From a bacterium (GTDB lineage Bacteria > Sumerlaeota > Sumerlaeia > SLMS01 > JAHLLQ01): DNA of 64,000 nucleotides. The translations under genes were made by a program, and so were the position numbers. Under the pieces are notes generated by a model. The model was not told where the DNA came from. It searched no databases and worked only from the letters and a program-made list of their open reading frames with translations. The stretch covers positions 1,178,001-1,242,000 of the forward strand of contig JAHLLQ010000001.1 in the NCBI GenBank assembly GCA_020444065.1, in the 5' to 3' direction. The first letter of the stretch is position 1, and every line of letters begins with the position of its first letter. Positions 19,301 through 46,176 of the stretch are shown one piece after another.

Positions 19301-20352
19301 TGAAGAGGCTCGCCACAATCCTGATCGTATTTGCGCTCGCCGGTGCGTCGCCCGCGATGGCTTTCGATTGGAACAATCGCCTGCCGCGACTGATCGAAGA
19401 AGGCGTTGCGGCCTACGACTCGGGCGACTACGAGACGGCTCGAGGCATCTTCCATGATGCGCGCGTCGAAGCCCCGGATGCTCCCGAACCGGTGATGAAC
19501 CTCGGTCTCACGTCGGCCAAGATGGGCGAGTACCAGGAAGCCATTGCCTCGTTCAACCATGCCGTTGAACTGGCAGAGAGCGCACCGGAGATTCGTGCGA
19601 AGTCGCTCTACAACAAGGGACTGTCCCAGTTCGAGCTCGCACGCCAGGCTTTGGAAGCCCAGGACCGAGAGCAGGCGATTCAAATGGGCGTTGCAGCGCT
19701 GAAGTCCTTCAACGAGGCACTCGACGCGCAATCCGATTTCCCCGATGCAGAGTTCAACCGCGAGCAGGTGCGGAATTTCCTGATGCAATTGGCTCAGCAA
19801 GCCCAGCAGGAACAACAGCAACAGCAGGGCGATGGAGATCAGAATCAGGATCAGCAGGATCAAGAGAATCAGGATCAGCAAAACCAGCAGCAACAGCAAC
19901 AGAACGGCGATCAGAACCAGGATCAGCAGGACCAGCAGCAGAGCGATCAACAGCAACAACAGGGTGATCAGCAAGATCAGCAGAATCAGCAGCAGGGCGA
20001 TCAACAAAACGACCAACAGCAACAGCAAGGCGAACAGCAGGATCAGGATCAGCAGCAGGAAGGCAAGGCACAGCAGAACAGTCAGGAGCAGGGCGAAGAG
20101 CAGCAACAGGACGAAAAGCAGGCCGACTCCGGCACGCCTCAGGAAGAGCAGCAGCCGGAAGAGAAGCAGGCAGACCAGTCACAGGCCGGCGATCAGGAGC
20201 AGCCGCAGGAAGGCCAACAGCAGCAAGCGCAGATGGCTCAGCAAATGTCGGAGGAGGAGGCGAAGAACATGCTCAACCTCCTCGGAAATCGCGGCTTGCT
20301 GATCCTGCGTCAGCCACGCGACGATTCGCGACGCAGCCGTCAGGATTGGTAA
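19297..20352 (+). CDS. batC: BatC: exported TPR protein with a long Gln-rich tail
   Basis: A 351-residue protein. A signal peptide ends near A-M-A-F-D, and residues about 25-160 form TPR repeats. From about residue 168 to 320 the chain is almost entirely Gln, with interspersed Asp, Asn, Gly and Glu (runs of Q-Q-Q, D-Q-Q, G-D-Q). The tail is polar, disordered and acidic. It ends with a short basic C-terminus (R-Q-P-R-D-D-S-R-R). TPR proteins of Bat operons sit in the periplasm and are thought to organise the complex. It overlaps batB by four bases. The Gln tail is far longer than usual TPR parts. Confidence 0.85.
   Translation: MMKRLATILIVFALAGASPAMAFDWNNRLPRLIEEGVAAYDSGDYETARGIFHDARVEAPDAPEPVMNLGLTSAKMGEYQEAIASFNHAVELAESAPEIRAKSLYNKGLSQFELARQALEAQDREQAIQMGVAALKSFNEALDAQSDFPDAEFNREQVRNFLMQLAQQAQQEQQQQQGDGDQNQDQQDQENQDQQNQQQQQQNGDQNQDQQDQQQSDQQQQQGDQQDQQNQQQGDQQNDQQQQQGEQQDQDQQQEGKAQQNSQEQGEEQQQDEKQADSGTPQEEQQPEEKQADQSQAGDQEQPQEGQQQQAQMAQQMSEEEAKNMLNLLGNRGLLILRQPRDDSRRSRQDW
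19796..20235 (+). repeat. degenerate CAG/CAA (Gln-Asp-Asn) repeat tract in batC
   Basis: A roughly 440-base low-complexity tract built from CAG, CAA, GAT and AAC codons, encoding repeated Q-Q-Q, D-Q-Q and G-D-Q units. Short blocks such as the CAGGATCAGCAG type recur many times. Because both CAG and CAA are used, the tract is partly protected from slippage, yet it is a likely site of length variation between strains. Confidence 0.85.
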
Positions 20353-31208: not shown

Positions 31209-32027
31209 CTACGGGTGAATTCGCTCGGGAAAGGGGACCAAGGCATCCCTTGCGGGCTCTGCTTCATCATCCGACCTGCTGCTCGAACCAGTCGCCTGCC
31301 ATCCTGTTGGCCGAGGGACCGTTGGGAATAGCCGCAGGTAGTTGTCTGGTTCTCCCGTACATTCTTCAACCTCACAGGACCACGGCATCTGGTAGGCGGA
31401 ATCGTATTCCAATCCGCTAATTCGATAAGAAGTGCCACCAAGGTGCTCAAGGGTTGGACTCCCGGGACCAGTGATGTCATAGATCGCATATCCATGGAAT
31501 CCAAACTCAAACGTGAGTGGAAGATATCCGTCCCTGTCGGGCCAGGGGTCAAAAACCACGGAACAGTCCATCTGCTTCGGGGTGCATGTCGGAGTCGGCG
31601 AAGGGCTGGGTGGGGGGGGCGGCGATGGAGTGGCGTCGAAGCGATGGGCTGTGTAACTTGGGGCGTTCTGTGACCAAGCCTCTGGACAGTCCGGGGCTTG
31701 CGCAGGGATCTTCGCACTCACAGTAATTACGATGGTATCAAAACCTTCGCTTGGGAGTTGCACTGTGTTTGAGAGCCCTTCCGTGTACTCGGTCTCTCCG
31801 AAGTTCTTTGCCCACATGACGAGCGTGGGCGTCGTCGGCCAGGGATAGCCAACCTCTTCGATCACCGTGAGGCTGAGGAACTCCCCTGGTACAAATGTCG
31901 TTGCCTCGCCGCTTTCCTTGTCCAAGTCGATAGTGAAGAAACGATCGCATTCCTGCCCGCCTACGACCCCAGGCAGGCAAAGGGCCGCGACCACGATCAG
32001 AACCCAGAGCTGTTGATTGGGATTCAC
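31209..32027 (-). CDS. secreted two-module protein, paralogue of the upstream gene
   Basis: A 272-residue exported protein: signal peptide (ending near V-G-G-Q), an N-terminal module rich in Phe, Thr and Tyr (~110 residues), a Pro/Ser/Thr linker (P-S-P-P-P-P-P-S-P), and a C-terminal module containing paired Cys (C-T-P-K-Q-M-D-C, S-C-E-V-E-E-C). GTG 32027 overlaps the preceding stop (GTGA), which fixes the start. The N-terminal half is clearly diverged from its neighbour, while the C-terminal module is nearly identical at the DNA level. Function unknown; the Cys pairs suggest disulphides outside the cell. Confidence 0.75.
   Translation of the reverse strand: MNPNQQLWVLIVVAALCLPGVVGGQECDRFFTIDLDKESGEATTFVPGEFLSLTVIEEVGYPWPTTPTLVMWAKNFGETEYTEGLSNTVQLPSEGFDTIVITVSAKIPAQAPDCPEAWSQNAPSYTAHRFDATPSPPPPPSPSPTPTCTPKQMDCSVVFDPWPDRDGYLPLTFEFGFHGYAIYDITGPGSPTLEHLGGTSYRISGLEYDSAYQMPWSCEVEECTGEPDNYLRLFPTVPRPTGWQATGSSSRSDDEAEPARDALVPFPERIHP
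31303..31418 (-). repeat. near-identical direct repeat, copy 1
   Basis: This 116-base block matches 32130-32245 with a single base change. It encodes the last part of the C-terminal module of each secreted protein. Flanking sequence diverges more rapidly, so the block looks like a recent duplication or gene conversion tract. Confidence 0.9.
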
Positions 32028-32848
32028 GGGATTTCCGCTTCTCCATCCCCCGGCGGAACTTCGCACGGCAGGACGCGCGTGGGCGTCACGGCGGAGTTGT
32101 CACGACTCTCGGGTCCCAAGGTCTGCCAGCCTGTTGGCCGAGGGACTGTTGGGAATAGCCGCAGGTAGTTGTCTGGTTCTCCCGTACATTCTTCAACCTC
32201 ACAGGACCACGGCATCTGGTAGGCGGAATCGTATTCCAATCCGCTGATTCGATAGGAGGTACCGCCGAGGTGCTCAAGGACTGGACTCCCAGGACCCGAG
32301 ATTCCGTAGATTGCGTATCCTTGGAATCCGAACTCAAACGAGAGCGGAAGATATCCATCCTTGTCGGGCCAGGGGTCAAAGACCACGGAACAGTCCATCT
32401 GCTTCGGGGTGCATGTCGGCGTCGGCGAAGGGCTTGGCGGTGGCGTGGGCGATGGAGTCGCGTCGATCCTGCAGGCAACATAGTACGCCGAGTTCCGAGA
32501 CCACGCAGCCGGACAATCGGGACCTTGAGATGGGATATACGCTGTCGCCGAGATCTGTACGCAGTTGTATCCGACCAAGGGCATCGTGAAGCTCGTCGAT
32601 AAGGACTCCGTCTGAAGACTTGCCTCAAAATCCGAGGACCATATCACGAGAGTTGGCGTCGTTGGCCAGCTGTGCGCCTCTGTTTCGACGATGGTGAGTT
32701 CCAAGCAGTCGCCAGGTTCGTATGTCGCGGAAGGATCATACGACTTGTCGAAGGCTATCCAGAATTGATTGTCACAAGCCTGCCCCTCTGCGGCCGCAGT
32801 CAGTAGCACGAACACAAGCAATCCGACGATCTGAAGCTGGTTCAGCAT
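32024..32848 (-). CDS. secreted two-module protein
   Basis: A 274-residue exported protein with signal peptide (L-L-V-F-V-L-L-T-A-A-A), an N-terminal module with W-P-T-T-P-T-L-V-I-W shared with its neighbour, a Pro-rich linker (S-P-T-P-P-P-S-P-S-P) and the Cys-containing C-terminal module. ATG 32848 is chosen because it gives the signal peptide. The ~16-residue end after the shared module differs from the downstream paralogue. It overlaps that gene by four bases, so both are made from one message. Confidence 0.76.
   Translation of the reverse strand: MLNQLQIVGLLVFVLLTAAAEGQACDNQFWIAFDKSYDPSATYEPGDCLELTIVETEAHSWPTTPTLVIWSSDFEASLQTESLSTSFTMPLVGYNCVQISATAYIPSQGPDCPAAWSRNSAYYVACRIDATPSPTPPPSPSPTPTCTPKQMDCSVVFDPWPDKDGYLPLSFEFGFQGYAIYGISGPGSPVLEHLGGTSYRISGLEYDSAYQMPWSCEVEECTGEPDNYLRLFPTVPRPTGWQTLGPESRDNSAVTPTRVLPCEVPPGDGEAEIP
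32130..32245 (-). repeat. near-identical direct repeat, copy 2
   Basis: Partner of the 31303-31418 block (115 of 116 bases identical by eye). The two copies are in the same orientation 827 bases apart, so recombination between them would delete one gene copy. Confidence 0.9.
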
Positions 32849-32915: not shown

Positions 32916-34055
32916 TTACAACGCCCCCTCAACCGCCTTGCCGATCAGGTCGATCTTCTCTTCGTCCAGGTGCGGACCCATGGGGAGGGTGACGAGGCGG
33001 TCGATCAGGCTGTCCAGCACAGGGAGTTCGAGGCCTTCGAACATGCGGCGCGTGTGTGTGAAGGAATGCAGCGCCGGGTAGTGGAAGGACGTCTGGATGC
33101 CTTGCGACTTGAGGGATTCGCGGAATTTCCAGCGATCCGTCCCGGGTGGCAGCAGCACGACAAACAGGTGATGCACCGGCGTGCCGCGAGGCGTCGCGAA
33201 GGGGATCTGCAGGCCGCGTTCGGTGAGCGGCTGCAGGCGGTCGCGCAGCATCGCCGCGGCGTGCGTGCGGCGCTGGGTGTACTCCGGGAGCTTGCGCAAC
33301 TGCTGGCGGCCCATCGCGGCACGGACCTCGTCCAGCCGATAGTTGTAGCCCATCGCTTCGACATCGTAGCGGGACGCGTCGCCGTGATGGCGCTGCCAGG
33401 TGCCGGTGCTCATGCCGTGGCTGCGCAGCAGGCGAATGCGATCGGCCGTGGCCTCGTCGTCGGTCAGAACCATCCCGCCCTCGCCCGTCGTCATGTTCTT
33501 ATTCCCATAGAACGACCAGGTGGACGCGAGGCCGAACGAGCCGATGTGCCGGTCGCCCAGCAGCGCCAGCGGTGCGTGGCAGGCGTCCTCGACAAGCGGG
33601 ATGTTGCGGTCGCGCACGAGGGCCTCGATGGCTTCCATGTCCGGCGGGAATCCGCCGTACGGAATCGTTGCGATCAGGCGGGTGCGCGGTGTGATCTTGC
33701 TTTCCAGGTCCGCCACGGAGGTCGTCAGGTCGTCCTCGCTGGTGCAATCGATCAGGACCGGCTTTGCCCCCAGGTAGAGCCCGGCATTCATGGTGGCGAC
33801 AAACGTCAGCGCCGGGACACAGAATTCGTCCTCCGGGCCGAGTCCGGCGGCCTCGTAGGCCAGGTGCAGCGCCGCGGTGCCGTTGGAAACCGCGATGCCA
33901 TGCTTCATCCCCATCGCGTCGGCGAATTCGCGCTCGAAAGCGGCGACTTCGCGCCCCATGGTCAACCACCCGGAGCGCAAAACTTCGGCGACGGCGTCAA
34001 ATTCTGCCTCGTCGAGCGTAGTATCTGTGAGCGGTACGAGCCAGGGCGTGGCCAT
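32916..34055 (-). CDS. DegT/DnrJ/EryC1-family PLP sugar aminotransferase
   Basis: A 379-residue fold-type I enzyme of the DegT/DnrJ/EryC1/StrS family, which transfers amino groups to nucleotide-linked keto sugars in surface glycan synthesis. Marks: S-N-G-T-A-A-L-H (phosphate/PLP contact), V-E-D-A-C-H-A with Asp 157, and the PLP lysine at 186 in F-Y-G-N-K-N-M. Start at 34055 is the family-like M-A-T-P-W-L-V-P-L-T. It lies 67 bases before the two secreted paralogues on the same strand, without any overlap. Confidence 0.9.
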   Translation of the reverse strand: MATPWLVPLTDTTLDEAEFDAVAEVLRSGWLTMGREVAAFEREFADAMGMKHGIAVSNGTAALHLAYEAAGLGPEDEFCVPALTFVATMNAGLYLGAKPVLIDCTSEDDLTTSVADLESKITPRTRLIATIPYGGFPPDMEAIEALVRDRNIPLVEDACHAPLALLGDRHIGSFGLASTWSFYGNKNMTTGEGGMVLTDDEATADRIRLLRSHGMSTGTWQRHHGDASRYDVEAMGYNYRLDEVRAAMGRQQLRKLPEYTQRRTHAAAMLRDRLQPLTERGLQIPFATPRGTPVHHLFVVLLPPGTDRWKFRESLKSQGIQTSFHYPALHSFTHTRRMFEGLELPVLDSLIDRLVTLPMGPHLDEEKIDLIGKAVEGAL

Positions 34056-34223
34056 GTGGGGTCTCTGGTGGGGGACGTTGGCGCCAATCGCGGGAAAAAC
34101 CCGCGGCACGAGCCAATGAGGCTAGCGCCCTGGACGCCACCAAATCAAGCGTGGCGTTGACCCCCCGCCCCGCTGTGGGATACGAAAGACTGACGCGAGG
34201 CAATCGCGCCGAGAGGTTGAGGC

Positions 34224-41814: not shown

Positions 41815-44800
41815 ATGGCTCTTCTTGATTCCCGTGTATTCCGCCGCTCGTTGCTCTTCGCGATCGATCTGATTCTATTGGCCTTAGCCTGGATACTCTC
41901 CTACTCGCTGCGGTTCGAGTTCTCGATCCCCAGCCTGCCGGAAGATCCATACGCCGGCCAGATGCTGGTGATGATCCCGTGGGTCGTCGGCCTGCAGCTC
42001 GTTTTATTCGCGGTCTTCCATCTCTACCGAGGCATCGTCAAGTACGTCAGCACCGCCGAATTGCGTACGATCATCATCGCCACTGTAATCAATGTGGGCG
42101 TCTGGTCGGCCTTCAATATGTGGGTTCAGCATCGGGAGCAGTTTCTCCAGATGCCGCTTACGATGGATGCCAGCACGGTGCTGCGCATTCCCTACGGAAT
42201 CCTGGGCATCTATTTCTTCATCTCGATTATCTTCGTGGGCGGGCTGAGATTCTTGCGACGCATCTGGGTCGAGAGCATAGGCGGCCATTTCGACGAGGAC
42301 GCCCCGGCTACACTGATCGTCGGTGCAGGCGATCTCGCCGAGAATGCTCTTCGCGACATCATGCGTTCAGAAGCCTCACCCTATCGGCCGGTATGCGCAG
42401 TCACGACCACCTCGCCGCGAGTCGGCTCATCGATTCAGGGCGTGAAAGTCGTCGGCACCGTCGATCGAATTCCCGAAGTGCTGGATCACTACGAAATCAA
42501 GGCGGTGCTGATCGCGCTCGAAGAAGACGATCCGAAGGTTCTCCGCAAGGTCGTCCAGGAATGTCAGGACGCCCAGGTGGCGTTCCATATCATCCCGACG
42601 ATGCGCGACATCACGAGCGGCAAGGTCGATGTGAGCCCCGTGCGGCGCGTCGGCATCGAGGATTTGCTCGGCCGCGAACCGGTGAATCTGACGCTGGCCG
42701 AGGATCGCAACTACCTGCGCGGCGAAACGGTTCTGATCACCGGCGCCGGTGGTTCGATCGGGTCGGAACTCTCACGCCAGGTCGCGTGGGCACGCCCGAA
42801 GGCAATGCTCCTGCTCGGCAAGGGCGAGAACTCCATTTACGATATTCACTCGGAGCTTGCCCCCAAGCATCCCGAGATCGAATTCCACGCGCTTGTTGCC
42901 GATGTGCGCGATCAGGCCGCGATGACAGGTATTTTCGAACTGCACCGCCCGACGATCGTCTTCCACGCGGCGGCGCACAAGCATGTGCCGCTGATGGAGG
43001 TACAGCCGGGCGAAGCGGTGAAGAACAATATTCTCGGCACGGCCACGGTGGCGTTCCTCGCGCACCTGGTGAACACGAAGAAGTTCGTGCTGATCTCGAC
43101 CGACAAGGCCGTTCGCCCGACGAGCGTCATGGGGGCGACAAAGCGCATCGCGGAGACGATTGTGTTCAGCCTCGGCGAACGTTCGCGAACGACTTTTCAG
43201 GCGGTTCGATTCGGAAACGTGCTGGGCAGTCGAGGATCGGTAATCCCGCTGTTCCAGCGGCAGATTGAAGCCGGCGGACCAGTGACGGTCACGCATCCGG
43301 AAGTCACGCGCTTCTTCATGACAATCCCGGAGGCGGTGAGTCTGCTGCTGCAGGCCGGATCGAAGTCGGAGTCGCGCTCGCTTTTCCTGCTCGACATGGG
43401 CGAGCCCGTGAAGATCGCGGATCTTGCGCGCAACATGATCACGCTCTCCGGCCTGAAGCCCGGCGCGGACATCGAAATCAAGTACACCGGCCTGCGCCCC
43501 GGCGAGAAGTTGCGCGAAGACTTGCTGACCAAGGAAGAAGGCGCCCAGGCGACCGACATCGGCAAAGTGTGGGCAACAAAGCCCAAGTTCATCCCCACGT
43601 GGAAGGAAGTCCAAGGGCTTGTGACCGAATTCCGCGATATGGCCGATGCCATGGACGATCGCGGCATTGTGGAACTGCTCCGTGACACCGTTCCGGATTT
43701 CCATCCGACGACGCTGCCGGACCTCACTGATCGCGAGGCGCTGCTACGCTTGAAGGACCGGGCGATGCAGGAGCTCGAGGGTCTCGCAACGAATATGCGA
43801 TCAGAGCTTGGCCTTGAGGGCGTTGAAGTCGAAGAGCCCGCGGTAGATGAAGTGGCGCCCGACCAGGACGACGAGCCCGAGACCTTCGATGGGCCCGAGA
43901 TTCCGGAGGAGGTTCCGGAAACGCCGGACATGTTCCCCGAGGGCGAAGACACAGCCCCACCGACTCGGCCGGGTGTTGTGGCGCGCCACCAGTCGGAGCT
44001 TCTGGATCGTGACGAGGAAGTCGAAGATCGCACCGTCCCGGCTGATGATATCGAAACACTGGAATCGGATGCAGCCCCAGACACGAAGACCGAGAGCGCC
44101 CCGGACGTGGACGAGGACGACGATAAGCTGGGATACGAGAGCCTTCGGACTCCCCCGCCACTGACGGCGGATACATTGGCGGATCTGGAAGGCGCCAACG
44201 CAGAAGACATCAATCCGAAGACGGTCGAGATCGAGAAGCCGAACTTCGATGAAGAGCCCGAATCGGACGAGATGGTCGATGAGTTGATCGCTCCCGTTCC
44301 GGATGTTCGCTCGGATGGCGAAGGACTCGAACATCCGGCTGCGAATGACGATCGGGAATTGACCGATTCGGATGTGATGCGCACGCCTCCCCCCATCTCA
44401 GAGCAAGTCCTGGAGGAGATGGGTGGCGAGCGCGGCGAAGAGTACAAGACGGAAGAGGTTTCATCACTCGATCTCGAGAAAGACCTCCTCGACGAAGACA
44501 CCGCCCCGCCGCTCCCCGATGAAGAACCGGAGCCCGAGGCAGATGCCCAGGAAGAGCTCTGGGAAGATGAGATAGAGGAAGAGCAGCCGGAGAGTCTCGT
44601 CCCAGAGGAAGTCCACGAAGAGGAAGTCCACGACGAAATCGTTGACGAAGAACCAACCCGAGAGGAACCGGATGCTGCAATCGAGCACGAATTTGACATG
44701 CCGCCGCTCGCCTACTTCCTCGCCGTCGAGGCGGGTCCCGGCCTGGCATCGACGTTGGCGCATTACCTGGATATTCTCGGCCCGGACGACATGCTGCTGC

Positions 44801-46176
44801 TTGCCGGCCCGGTTGCGCAGCACGATATCCCCCCCGACTATGCCGACCGCGTAACGCTCATCGGCGAAAGTGGTTCGCCCGGCGCGGCCGATTGGAACAA
44901 CGCCATCGATAGTTGCCCGATCGGAGCGATCTTTGTCGCGGCCTCTCCTGAGGCGCGCATCCTGCCCACACTGGCACCACGGCTCGCAGAGGCATTTTCC
45001 CGCGAAGAAGTGGCCGTCGCGTATGGCGACTACATCGAACGCGATGCCGAAGGGAACGAGTCACTGGTCGAACTGCAGGATCACGCCGGCTGTCCGCACG
45101 AACGATTCGATTTCGGACCGGTGATTGCCTATCGCGCGGGCATGGTTCAAGCCGTCGGAAAACTGGACGAGGAGTTGGAGTTCGCCTTCCAGTACGATCT
45201 GCACCTGCGCCTGATGCAGGAAGGTCTGTTCGTTCGGATGACCGAGCCCATCGCAGTCGTGCCGGCGGCCGCATCTGACCAGGTAACGGCGCTGCACTCG
45301 CCCGGGCGGGGTCCTCTTGGCGGGTTCTCATACGTTTTCTATCCGCCGGAGGTGGAAGCCGAAGTGACCCAGGTGTTCGAGAAGGCACTGCGCCAGATCG
45401 GAGCCTGGATCGATCAGCCGACCCATCGCGTGCCCACGCCTGATGAGGAGCCCGAAGTCACCGCGTCGATCGTGGTTCCGGTCCTGAATCGTGAGGATAC
45501 GATCGGCAACGCCATTCGGAGTGTGCTGGAAGGAACCTACCAGGACTTCGAGATCATCGTGGTCGACAACGGTTCGACCGATCAAACCTGCGATGCTGTT
45601 GCCGAGTTAATTGAAGAGGACCATCGCGTGCGCCTGATAGATGGCATGGGCGATTCGATCGCCTCCGCGCTGAACGACGGAATCCGCGTCGCCCGCGGCC
45701 GATACATCTGCCAGTTGGACAGCGATGACGAGTACGTCCCGGAGACCCTGGAACGCATGATCGAGCAGTTGGAATCCAACCCGAAGTGCGGCCTCGCGAT
45801 CAGCTACTATCGCCTGATCGATGAGGAGGGAAACGTCATTGAGGATGTTCCGCCGGTCACACACACGGGTTACTCGCGGAACCAGATCGTGCGACGTGAC
45901 GGCGCCGGAGCAGTTCGCGTCTTCCCGAAGACGGTGCTCGAGGAAATGGGGCTGTACGACGAGGAGCACTACGGAAACTTCGGCGAGGACTATGATATGG
46001 TCCTGAAGGTTTCGGAGCGTTACGATGTAGATCGTGTCAGCGAGGTGCTGTATCATTATCGCCGCCATTCCGGGAACACGGACATGACGCGCGATCCAAA
46101 GACGAAGTATGTGAACAAGAACCGGGCGCGCCAGATGGCTCTGCGCCGACGCATGAGGATGAACGAAGAGAGGTGA
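41815..46176 (+). CDS. polysaccharide epimerase (CapD/FlaA1-like) fused to two glycosyltransferase-like domains
   Basis: A 1453-residue fusion. Residues 1-150: four membrane helices as in WbpM/CapD-type C6-dehydratases. Residues ~150-290: a CoA-binding-like nucleotide domain. Residues ~300-620: SDR dehydratase with I-T-G-A-G-G-S-I-G-S at ~306 and S-T-D-K-A-V-R-P-T. Residues ~660-960: very acidic, Glu/Asp/Pro-rich, disordered. Residues ~962-1205: a GT-A-like module without a clear D-x-D. Residues ~1212-1440: a GT2 transferase with I-V-V-P-V-L-N-R-E-D, V-D-N-G-S-T-D-Q-T and D-S-D-D-E. CapD-type and GT2 enzymes are normally separate proteins. Expected job: make a modified UDP-sugar and add it to a lipid-linked or surface glycan. 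Confidence 0.87.
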   Translation: MALLDSRVFRRSLLFAIDLILLALAWILSYSLRFEFSIPSLPEDPYAGQMLVMIPWVVGLQLVLFAVFHLYRGIVKYVSTAELRTIIIATVINVGVWSAFNMWVQHREQFLQMPLTMDASTVLRIPYGILGIYFFISIIFVGGLRFLRRIWVESIGGHFDEDAPATLIVGAGDLAENALRDIMRSEASPYRPVCAVTTTSPRVGSSIQGVKVVGTVDRIPEVLDHYEIKAVLIALEEDDPKVLRKVVQECQDAQVAFHIIPTMRDITSGKVDVSPVRRVGIEDLLGREPVNLTLAEDRNYLRGETVLITGAGGSIGSELSRQVAWARPKAMLLLGKGENSIYDIHSELAPKHPEIEFHALVADVRDQAAMTGIFELHRPTIVFHAAAHKHVPLMEVQPGEAVKNNILGTATVAFLAHLVNTKKFVLISTDKAVRPTSVMGATKRIAETIVFSLGERSRTTFQAVRFGNVLGSRGSVIPLFQRQIEAGGPVTVTHPEVTRFFMTIPEAVSLLLQAGSKSESRSLFLLDMGEPVKIADLARNMITLSGLKPGADIEIKYTGLRPGEKLREDLLTKEEGAQATDIGKVWATKPKFIPTWKEVQGLVTEFRDMADAMDDRGIVELLRDTVPDFHPTTLPDLTDREALLRLKDRAMQELEGLATNMRSELGLEGVEVEEPAVDEVAPDQDDEPETFDGPEIPEEVPETPDMFPEGEDTAPPTRPGVVARHQSELLDRDEEVEDRTVPADDIETLESDAAPDTKTESAPDVDEDDDKLGYESLRTPPPLTADTLADLEGANAEDINPKTVEIEKPNFDEEPESDEMVDELIAPVPDVRSDGEGLEHPAANDDRELTDSDVMRTPPPISEQVLEEMGGERGEEYKTEEVSSLDLEKDLLDEDTAPPLPDEEPEPEADAQEELWEDEIEEEQPESLVPEEVHEEEVHDEIVDEEPTREEPDAAIEHEFDMPPLAYFLAVEAGPGLASTLAHYLDILGPDDMLLLAGPVAQHDIPPDYADRVTLIGESGSPGAADWNNAIDSCPIGAIFVAASPEARILPTLAPRLAEAFSREEVAVAYGDYIERDAEGNESLVELQDHAGCPHERFDFGPVIAYRAGMVQAVGKLDEELEFAFQYDLHLRLMQEGLFVRMTEPIAVVPAAASDQVTALHSPGRGPLGGFSYVFYPPEVEAEVTQVFEKALRQIGAWIDQPTHRVPTPDEEPEVTASIVVPVLNREDTIGNAIRSVLEGTYQDFEIIVVDNGSTDQTCDAVAELIEEDHRVRLIDGMGDSIASALNDGIRVARGRYICQLDSDDEYVPETLERMIEQLESNPKCGLAISYYRLIDEEGNVIEDVPPVTHTGYSRNQIVRRDGAGAVRVFPKTVLEEMGLYDEEHYGNFGEDYDMVLKVSERYDVDRVSEVLYHYRRHSGNTDMTRDPKTKYVNKNRARQMALRRRMRMNEER

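Follow-up and report, generated by a model that had tools for sequence, protein, structure and literature searches.

Gene conversion has been tied in Helicobacter pylori to the outer-membrane paralogues babA and babB, in which near-identical portions lie around a divergent portion and of which BabA is a known adhesin. In Mycobacterium tuberculosis, conversion between the adjacent duplicated genes PE_PGRS17 and PE_PGRS18 was demonstrated across many strains (PMC1762029). Here, a gene pair of this kind, P1 and P2, is described from the window, the whole 64-kb stretch of DNA that was analysed, in the genome of an uncultured bacterium from the candidate phylum Sumerlaeota. PE_PGRS17/PE_PGRS18 is the closest published parallel among those compared, since there too adjacent duplicated genes exchange sequence by conversion, although it involves another protein family and many strains whereas the event in P1/P2 is inferred from one genome (PMC1762029). 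With babA/babB the pair shares its nature as paralogues with near-identical and divergent portions, but BabA is an adhesin while P1 and P2 are known from their sequences, with only two copies of the C-terminal module (C-module). Our reading, to which we give a probability of about 85%, is that the similarity of P1 and P2 results from gene conversion, probably repeated, of the linker and C-module after the N-terminal modules (N-modules) had diverged. The process is ordinary, well-known gene conversion, seen in a little-known family, and the pair offers a clear small case, from a candidate phylum, of conversion being told apart from constraint by means of silent sites and an outside genome.

P1 (32024-32848, 274 residues, ATG start) is the upstream gene and P2 (31209-32027, 272 residues, GTG start) the downstream gene, both on the minus strand, and the GTG of P2 overlaps the TGA of P1 (GTGA, 32027-32024), a start-stop overlap that suggests translational coupling. 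In both proteins a signal peptide precedes the N-module (about 107 residues), which a Pro-rich linker joins to the C-module; the latter spans about 98 residues, finishes with ...PTGWQ and is followed by a short tail of 28-32 residues. By eye, P1 lacks a lipobox. In P1 and P2, respectively, and all on the minus strand, the N-modules lie at 32456-32779 and 31632-31952, the Pro/Ser/Thr linkers at 32417-32458 and 31590-31631, the C-modules, with a conserved Cys, at 32123-32416 and 31296-31589, and the diverged tails, which start after ...PTGWQ, at 32027-32122 and 31212-31295. Both frames are open and both N-termini hydrophobic, in agreement with the first-pass annotation of a secreted pair with a Pro-rich linker and a Cys in the C-module. 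A DegT/DnrJ-type aminotransferase gene (32916-34109), for which the top named match (54%) comes from a Candidatus Sumerlaeota MAG, lies upstream of P1, and a small PAS-like ORF and a Ham1/rdgB-like gene lie downstream of P2, all on the same strand as the pair, and in the nine relatives having both the rdgB-like and the DegT-like gene these are on separate contigs. Scans for promoters and terminators gave nothing exceeding shuffles, and neither Rfam families nor tRNAs were found within the 64-kb window. The GC3 of the pair (31209-32848) is 0.61-0.65, lower than that of three tested neighbours (0.71-0.85), and similarly low values (0.60-0.62) are seen in two paralogues, on contigs C2 and C6, that are described below.

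The similarity of the two genes is concentrated in an internal tract. The 116-nt blocks with one difference (base 31320) that had been reported were recovered at exactly the same coordinates, 32130-32245 in P1 and 31303-31418 in P2 (both minus strand), and are the putative latest conversion patch. They contain an exact 98-nt repeat (31321-31418 and 32148-32245), which is the only exact repeat of at least 40 nt on either strand of the window, and are enclosed in a 300-nt repeat (31296-31595 and 32123-32422) with 274 of 300 positions identical. The 26 differences are clustered, such that an identical run of at least 98 nt arose in 0.035% of 20,000 random placements (P 0.00035), and clustering was also found by third positions only (P = 0.0039, 300-nt repeat). 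By blastn, the putatively homogenised tract extends without gaps over 344 nt (32123-32466 in P1, with its counterpart at 31296-31639 in P2, both minus strand) at 90.4% identity. Identities per sixty-base window are 21-40 before the tract, 47-60 inside it and 41, 23 and 19 at and past its end, and both flanks are diverged, the N-module side being clearly homologous and the tail side weakly so. Since the tails have diverged (identity at 8 of 26 aligned residues), the region of similarity is internal rather than 3′-terminal, and the earlier description of near-identical 3′ ends fails for the last 28-32 codons.

The annotation had left open whether the C-module was constrained or recently converted, and an N-module evolving freely beside a C-module protein under strong purifying selection would account for the residue identities of 90/96 in the C-modules and 48/108 (44%) in the N-modules. 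Such selection does act on the C-module, where dN is 0.035 (NG86) against a dS of about 0.33, but the silent sites are also far closer in the C-module than in the N-module: P1 and P2 differ at 11/45 fourfold sites in the C-module versus 16/25 in the N-module (Fisher p 0.0019), and at 19/96 versus 75/108 third positions (p 7e-13). Constraint at the protein level leaves silent sites unprotected and is thus insufficient, and RNA structure was rejected as the cause of the DNA identity because the fold of the 116-nt block is unremarkable (z -0.47). An outside comparison was provided by two full-length homologues with the same architecture, found in a search of relatives, both in one genome of the same order, termed G010. 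P1 shares 34/105 and 38/104 residues with their N-modules and 28/95 and 23/90 with their C-modules, the values for P2 being 33/105 and 33/104 and 28/95 and 22/90, while the two homologues compared with each other (N-module 55/105, C-module 49/119) are without the contrast seen in P1/P2. Hence, in a comparison that comprises two homologues from one other genome and a pair from one strain, the C-module diverges between genomes no less than the N-module and is not unusually constrained. The C-module occurs in 1 of 38 other genomes of the class (G010), where the copies are without clear one-to-one orthology to P1 and P2. The contrast at silent sites, the ordinary divergence of the C-module between genomes and the unremarkable RNA fold together argue for conversion between P1 and P2, and purifying selection by itself is very improbable. 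The first halves are strongly different, as had been noted, but their fast diversification need not be invoked, since the silent sites of the N-modules are far apart too and the divergence looks old.

The same contrast between modules would be expected if a recent duplication of the whole gene had been followed by replacement of the N-module and tail of one copy from another family member, and further genes with N-modules do exist in the genome. Yet the P1 and P2 N-modules are nearest relatives of each other, being sisters in the N-module tree with support 89/90 at a join that carries a long-branch warning; the genome search found no close donor, and two events, one per side, would be needed, so that we give this route as little credence as selection. 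Least probable of all is a local assembly error, in which duplicated or collapsed reads would explain the near-identity of a pair that is known here from the assembled contig alone: there are 25 differences in the other 184 nt of the 300-nt repeat, 20 of the 26 differences are at third positions, the contig spans 1.26 Mb and both frames are open.

According to the preferred reading, gene conversion, P1 and P2 would have arisen by an old tandem duplication of a secreted two-module protein specific to the lineage. Their N-modules would have diverged first, and in one of the genes the DNA of the linker and C-module would then have been overwritten with that of the other via homologous recombination, probably in at least two rounds that left an older tract, some 344 nt long, and close to its 3′ edge a newer patch of some 116 nt. 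For P1/P2, both a RecA-type recombination route and the number of rounds are inferred. In two comparisons chosen post hoc, fourfold differences amount to 14/37 across the linker plus the first half of the C-module and to 2/20 in its second half (p 0.03); when third positions of the C-module alone are counted, the proportions are 16/54 versus 3/42 (p 0.009). The 344-nt tract is therefore read as an older one partly overwritten by a newer patch, although a single event followed by uneven mutation could have produced it as well. Deletion by recombination between the 116-nt blocks, which are 827 bp apart in the same reading phase, would also be possible. Modules homogenised in this way can mislead annotation and orthology calls.

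With regard to fold, the N-module was modelled from two sequences as a seven-stranded structure (pLDDT 71). Among solved chains, those closest to it are mostly Ig- and FN3-like, with a best Foldseek E-value of 0.012 and, by VIA, Z up to 9.2 and an rmsd of 2.3 over 93 residues. This likeness may reflect no more than a common arrangement, and the prediction of an Ig/FN3-like beta-sandwich for the N-module is of moderate confidence. The C-module of all four members matched no Pfam family up to E 10, but 16 of the 18 matches of its profile to PDB sequences up to E 10 were FN3-bearing, judged by their names. The best E-value for a whole sequence was 2.3e-4, and the single-domain i-E was 4.6-5.4 at best among the three shown. 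The C-module thus appears to resemble FN3 weakly, around Y-x-I-x-G-L...Y, while differing from described FN3 domains in that P1 and P2 are without a Pfam match at any reported E-value and the individual domain scores are non-significant. A structure prediction of the whole protein (pLDDT 54.8), for which Foldseek gave Fab chains, none at E <= 0.001, was set aside. P1 and P2 are best described, on these models, as small secreted beta-sandwich proteins whose role is most likely extracytoplasmic, in binding or in structure, with a shared docking C-module and differing N-modules. That they belong to an adhesin or effector set, as had been proposed, is not borne out, as the C-module occurs twice in the genome, no silent cassettes were found in it and none of the family models assigns a function. 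It is conceivable, if unlikely, that recombination maintains a common docking C-module in two co-expressed partners of a Sumerlaeota-specific family while their N-modules specialise, in which case conversion would help to maintain a two-component surface structure.

The P1/P2 protein family is undescribed. Pfam searches with P1, P2, both G010 homologues and the protein on contig C6 matched no family, and NCBIfam gave weak matches, the best of them (E 0.068) to the P1 linker region, so that describing the family would close a minor gap. Among 5.39 million papers, a literature search found none pairing 'Sumerlaeota' with 'gene conversion', and the passages on secretion, surface proteins, adhesins and duplication in a study of Sumerlaeota describe no such genes (PMC8092238). 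The suggested look for more copies elsewhere in the genome found them for the N-module but not for the C-module: a profile made from six N-modules found six copies in the own genome, one each in P1 and P2 and a further two each in ORFs of 489 aa (contig C2) and 573 aa (contig C6, also recorded as L006 and counted through this profile), and two in G010, while matches of the C-module profile among 39 genomes of the class were limited to the P1/P2 pair and its two homologues in G010. With the cut-off at E <= 0.001, the N-module profile has matches in 2 of 386 genomes and in none of the remaining 384, and at E <= 0.01 there are matches in 4 of 39 genomes of the class, of which two are marginal (L026, E 0.0052; L027, E 0.0094) and were left out of the family. 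Nothing was found when viral contigs were searched with P1, and a search of the genome contigs with P2 gave 63 pattern matches and no relative. Also excluded were the loci L005, L007, L008, L010-L020, L022 and L023, many of which match chiefly near the Pro-rich linker; ORFs were listed for L010 and L014 among these.

The C2 paralogue (L004:1345-2814 and the following bases, about 664,900-666,480 of the contig) is a secreted protein with two N-modules, of which the second exits the frame early, the remainder of the module and a ...GWLMG... tail being found in another frame, and the gene may be frameshifted or misassembled. Its paralogue on contig C6 (L032:1261-2982), in which two N-modules flank an unassigned middle domain of about 250 residues, ends in ...PSGWLMG... 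and a short tail. The occurrence of ...GWLMG... after a Pro-rich linker in these two other family proteins prompted a search for a genome-wide C-terminal sorting tag, which was rejected: the DNA pattern was found at 4 places, against 1 in a reversed control, and these were two family members and two internal repeats of one unrelated protein. The tail is thus at most a family trait. On contig C4 of the same genome, L044:426-2966 encodes an 846-aa protein, unrelated to the P1/P2 family, in which the copies of an internal repeat, about 290 residues long, are set apart by long Pro/Thr/Ser linkers. Elsewhere in the window, a TPR protein adjoining a BatD-like gene contains an imperfect Gln/Asp-rich repeat (19774-20055), and a 1453-aa ORF (41815-46176) matches both Pfam Polysacc_synt_2 and a family 2 glycosyltransferase, an unusual fusion.
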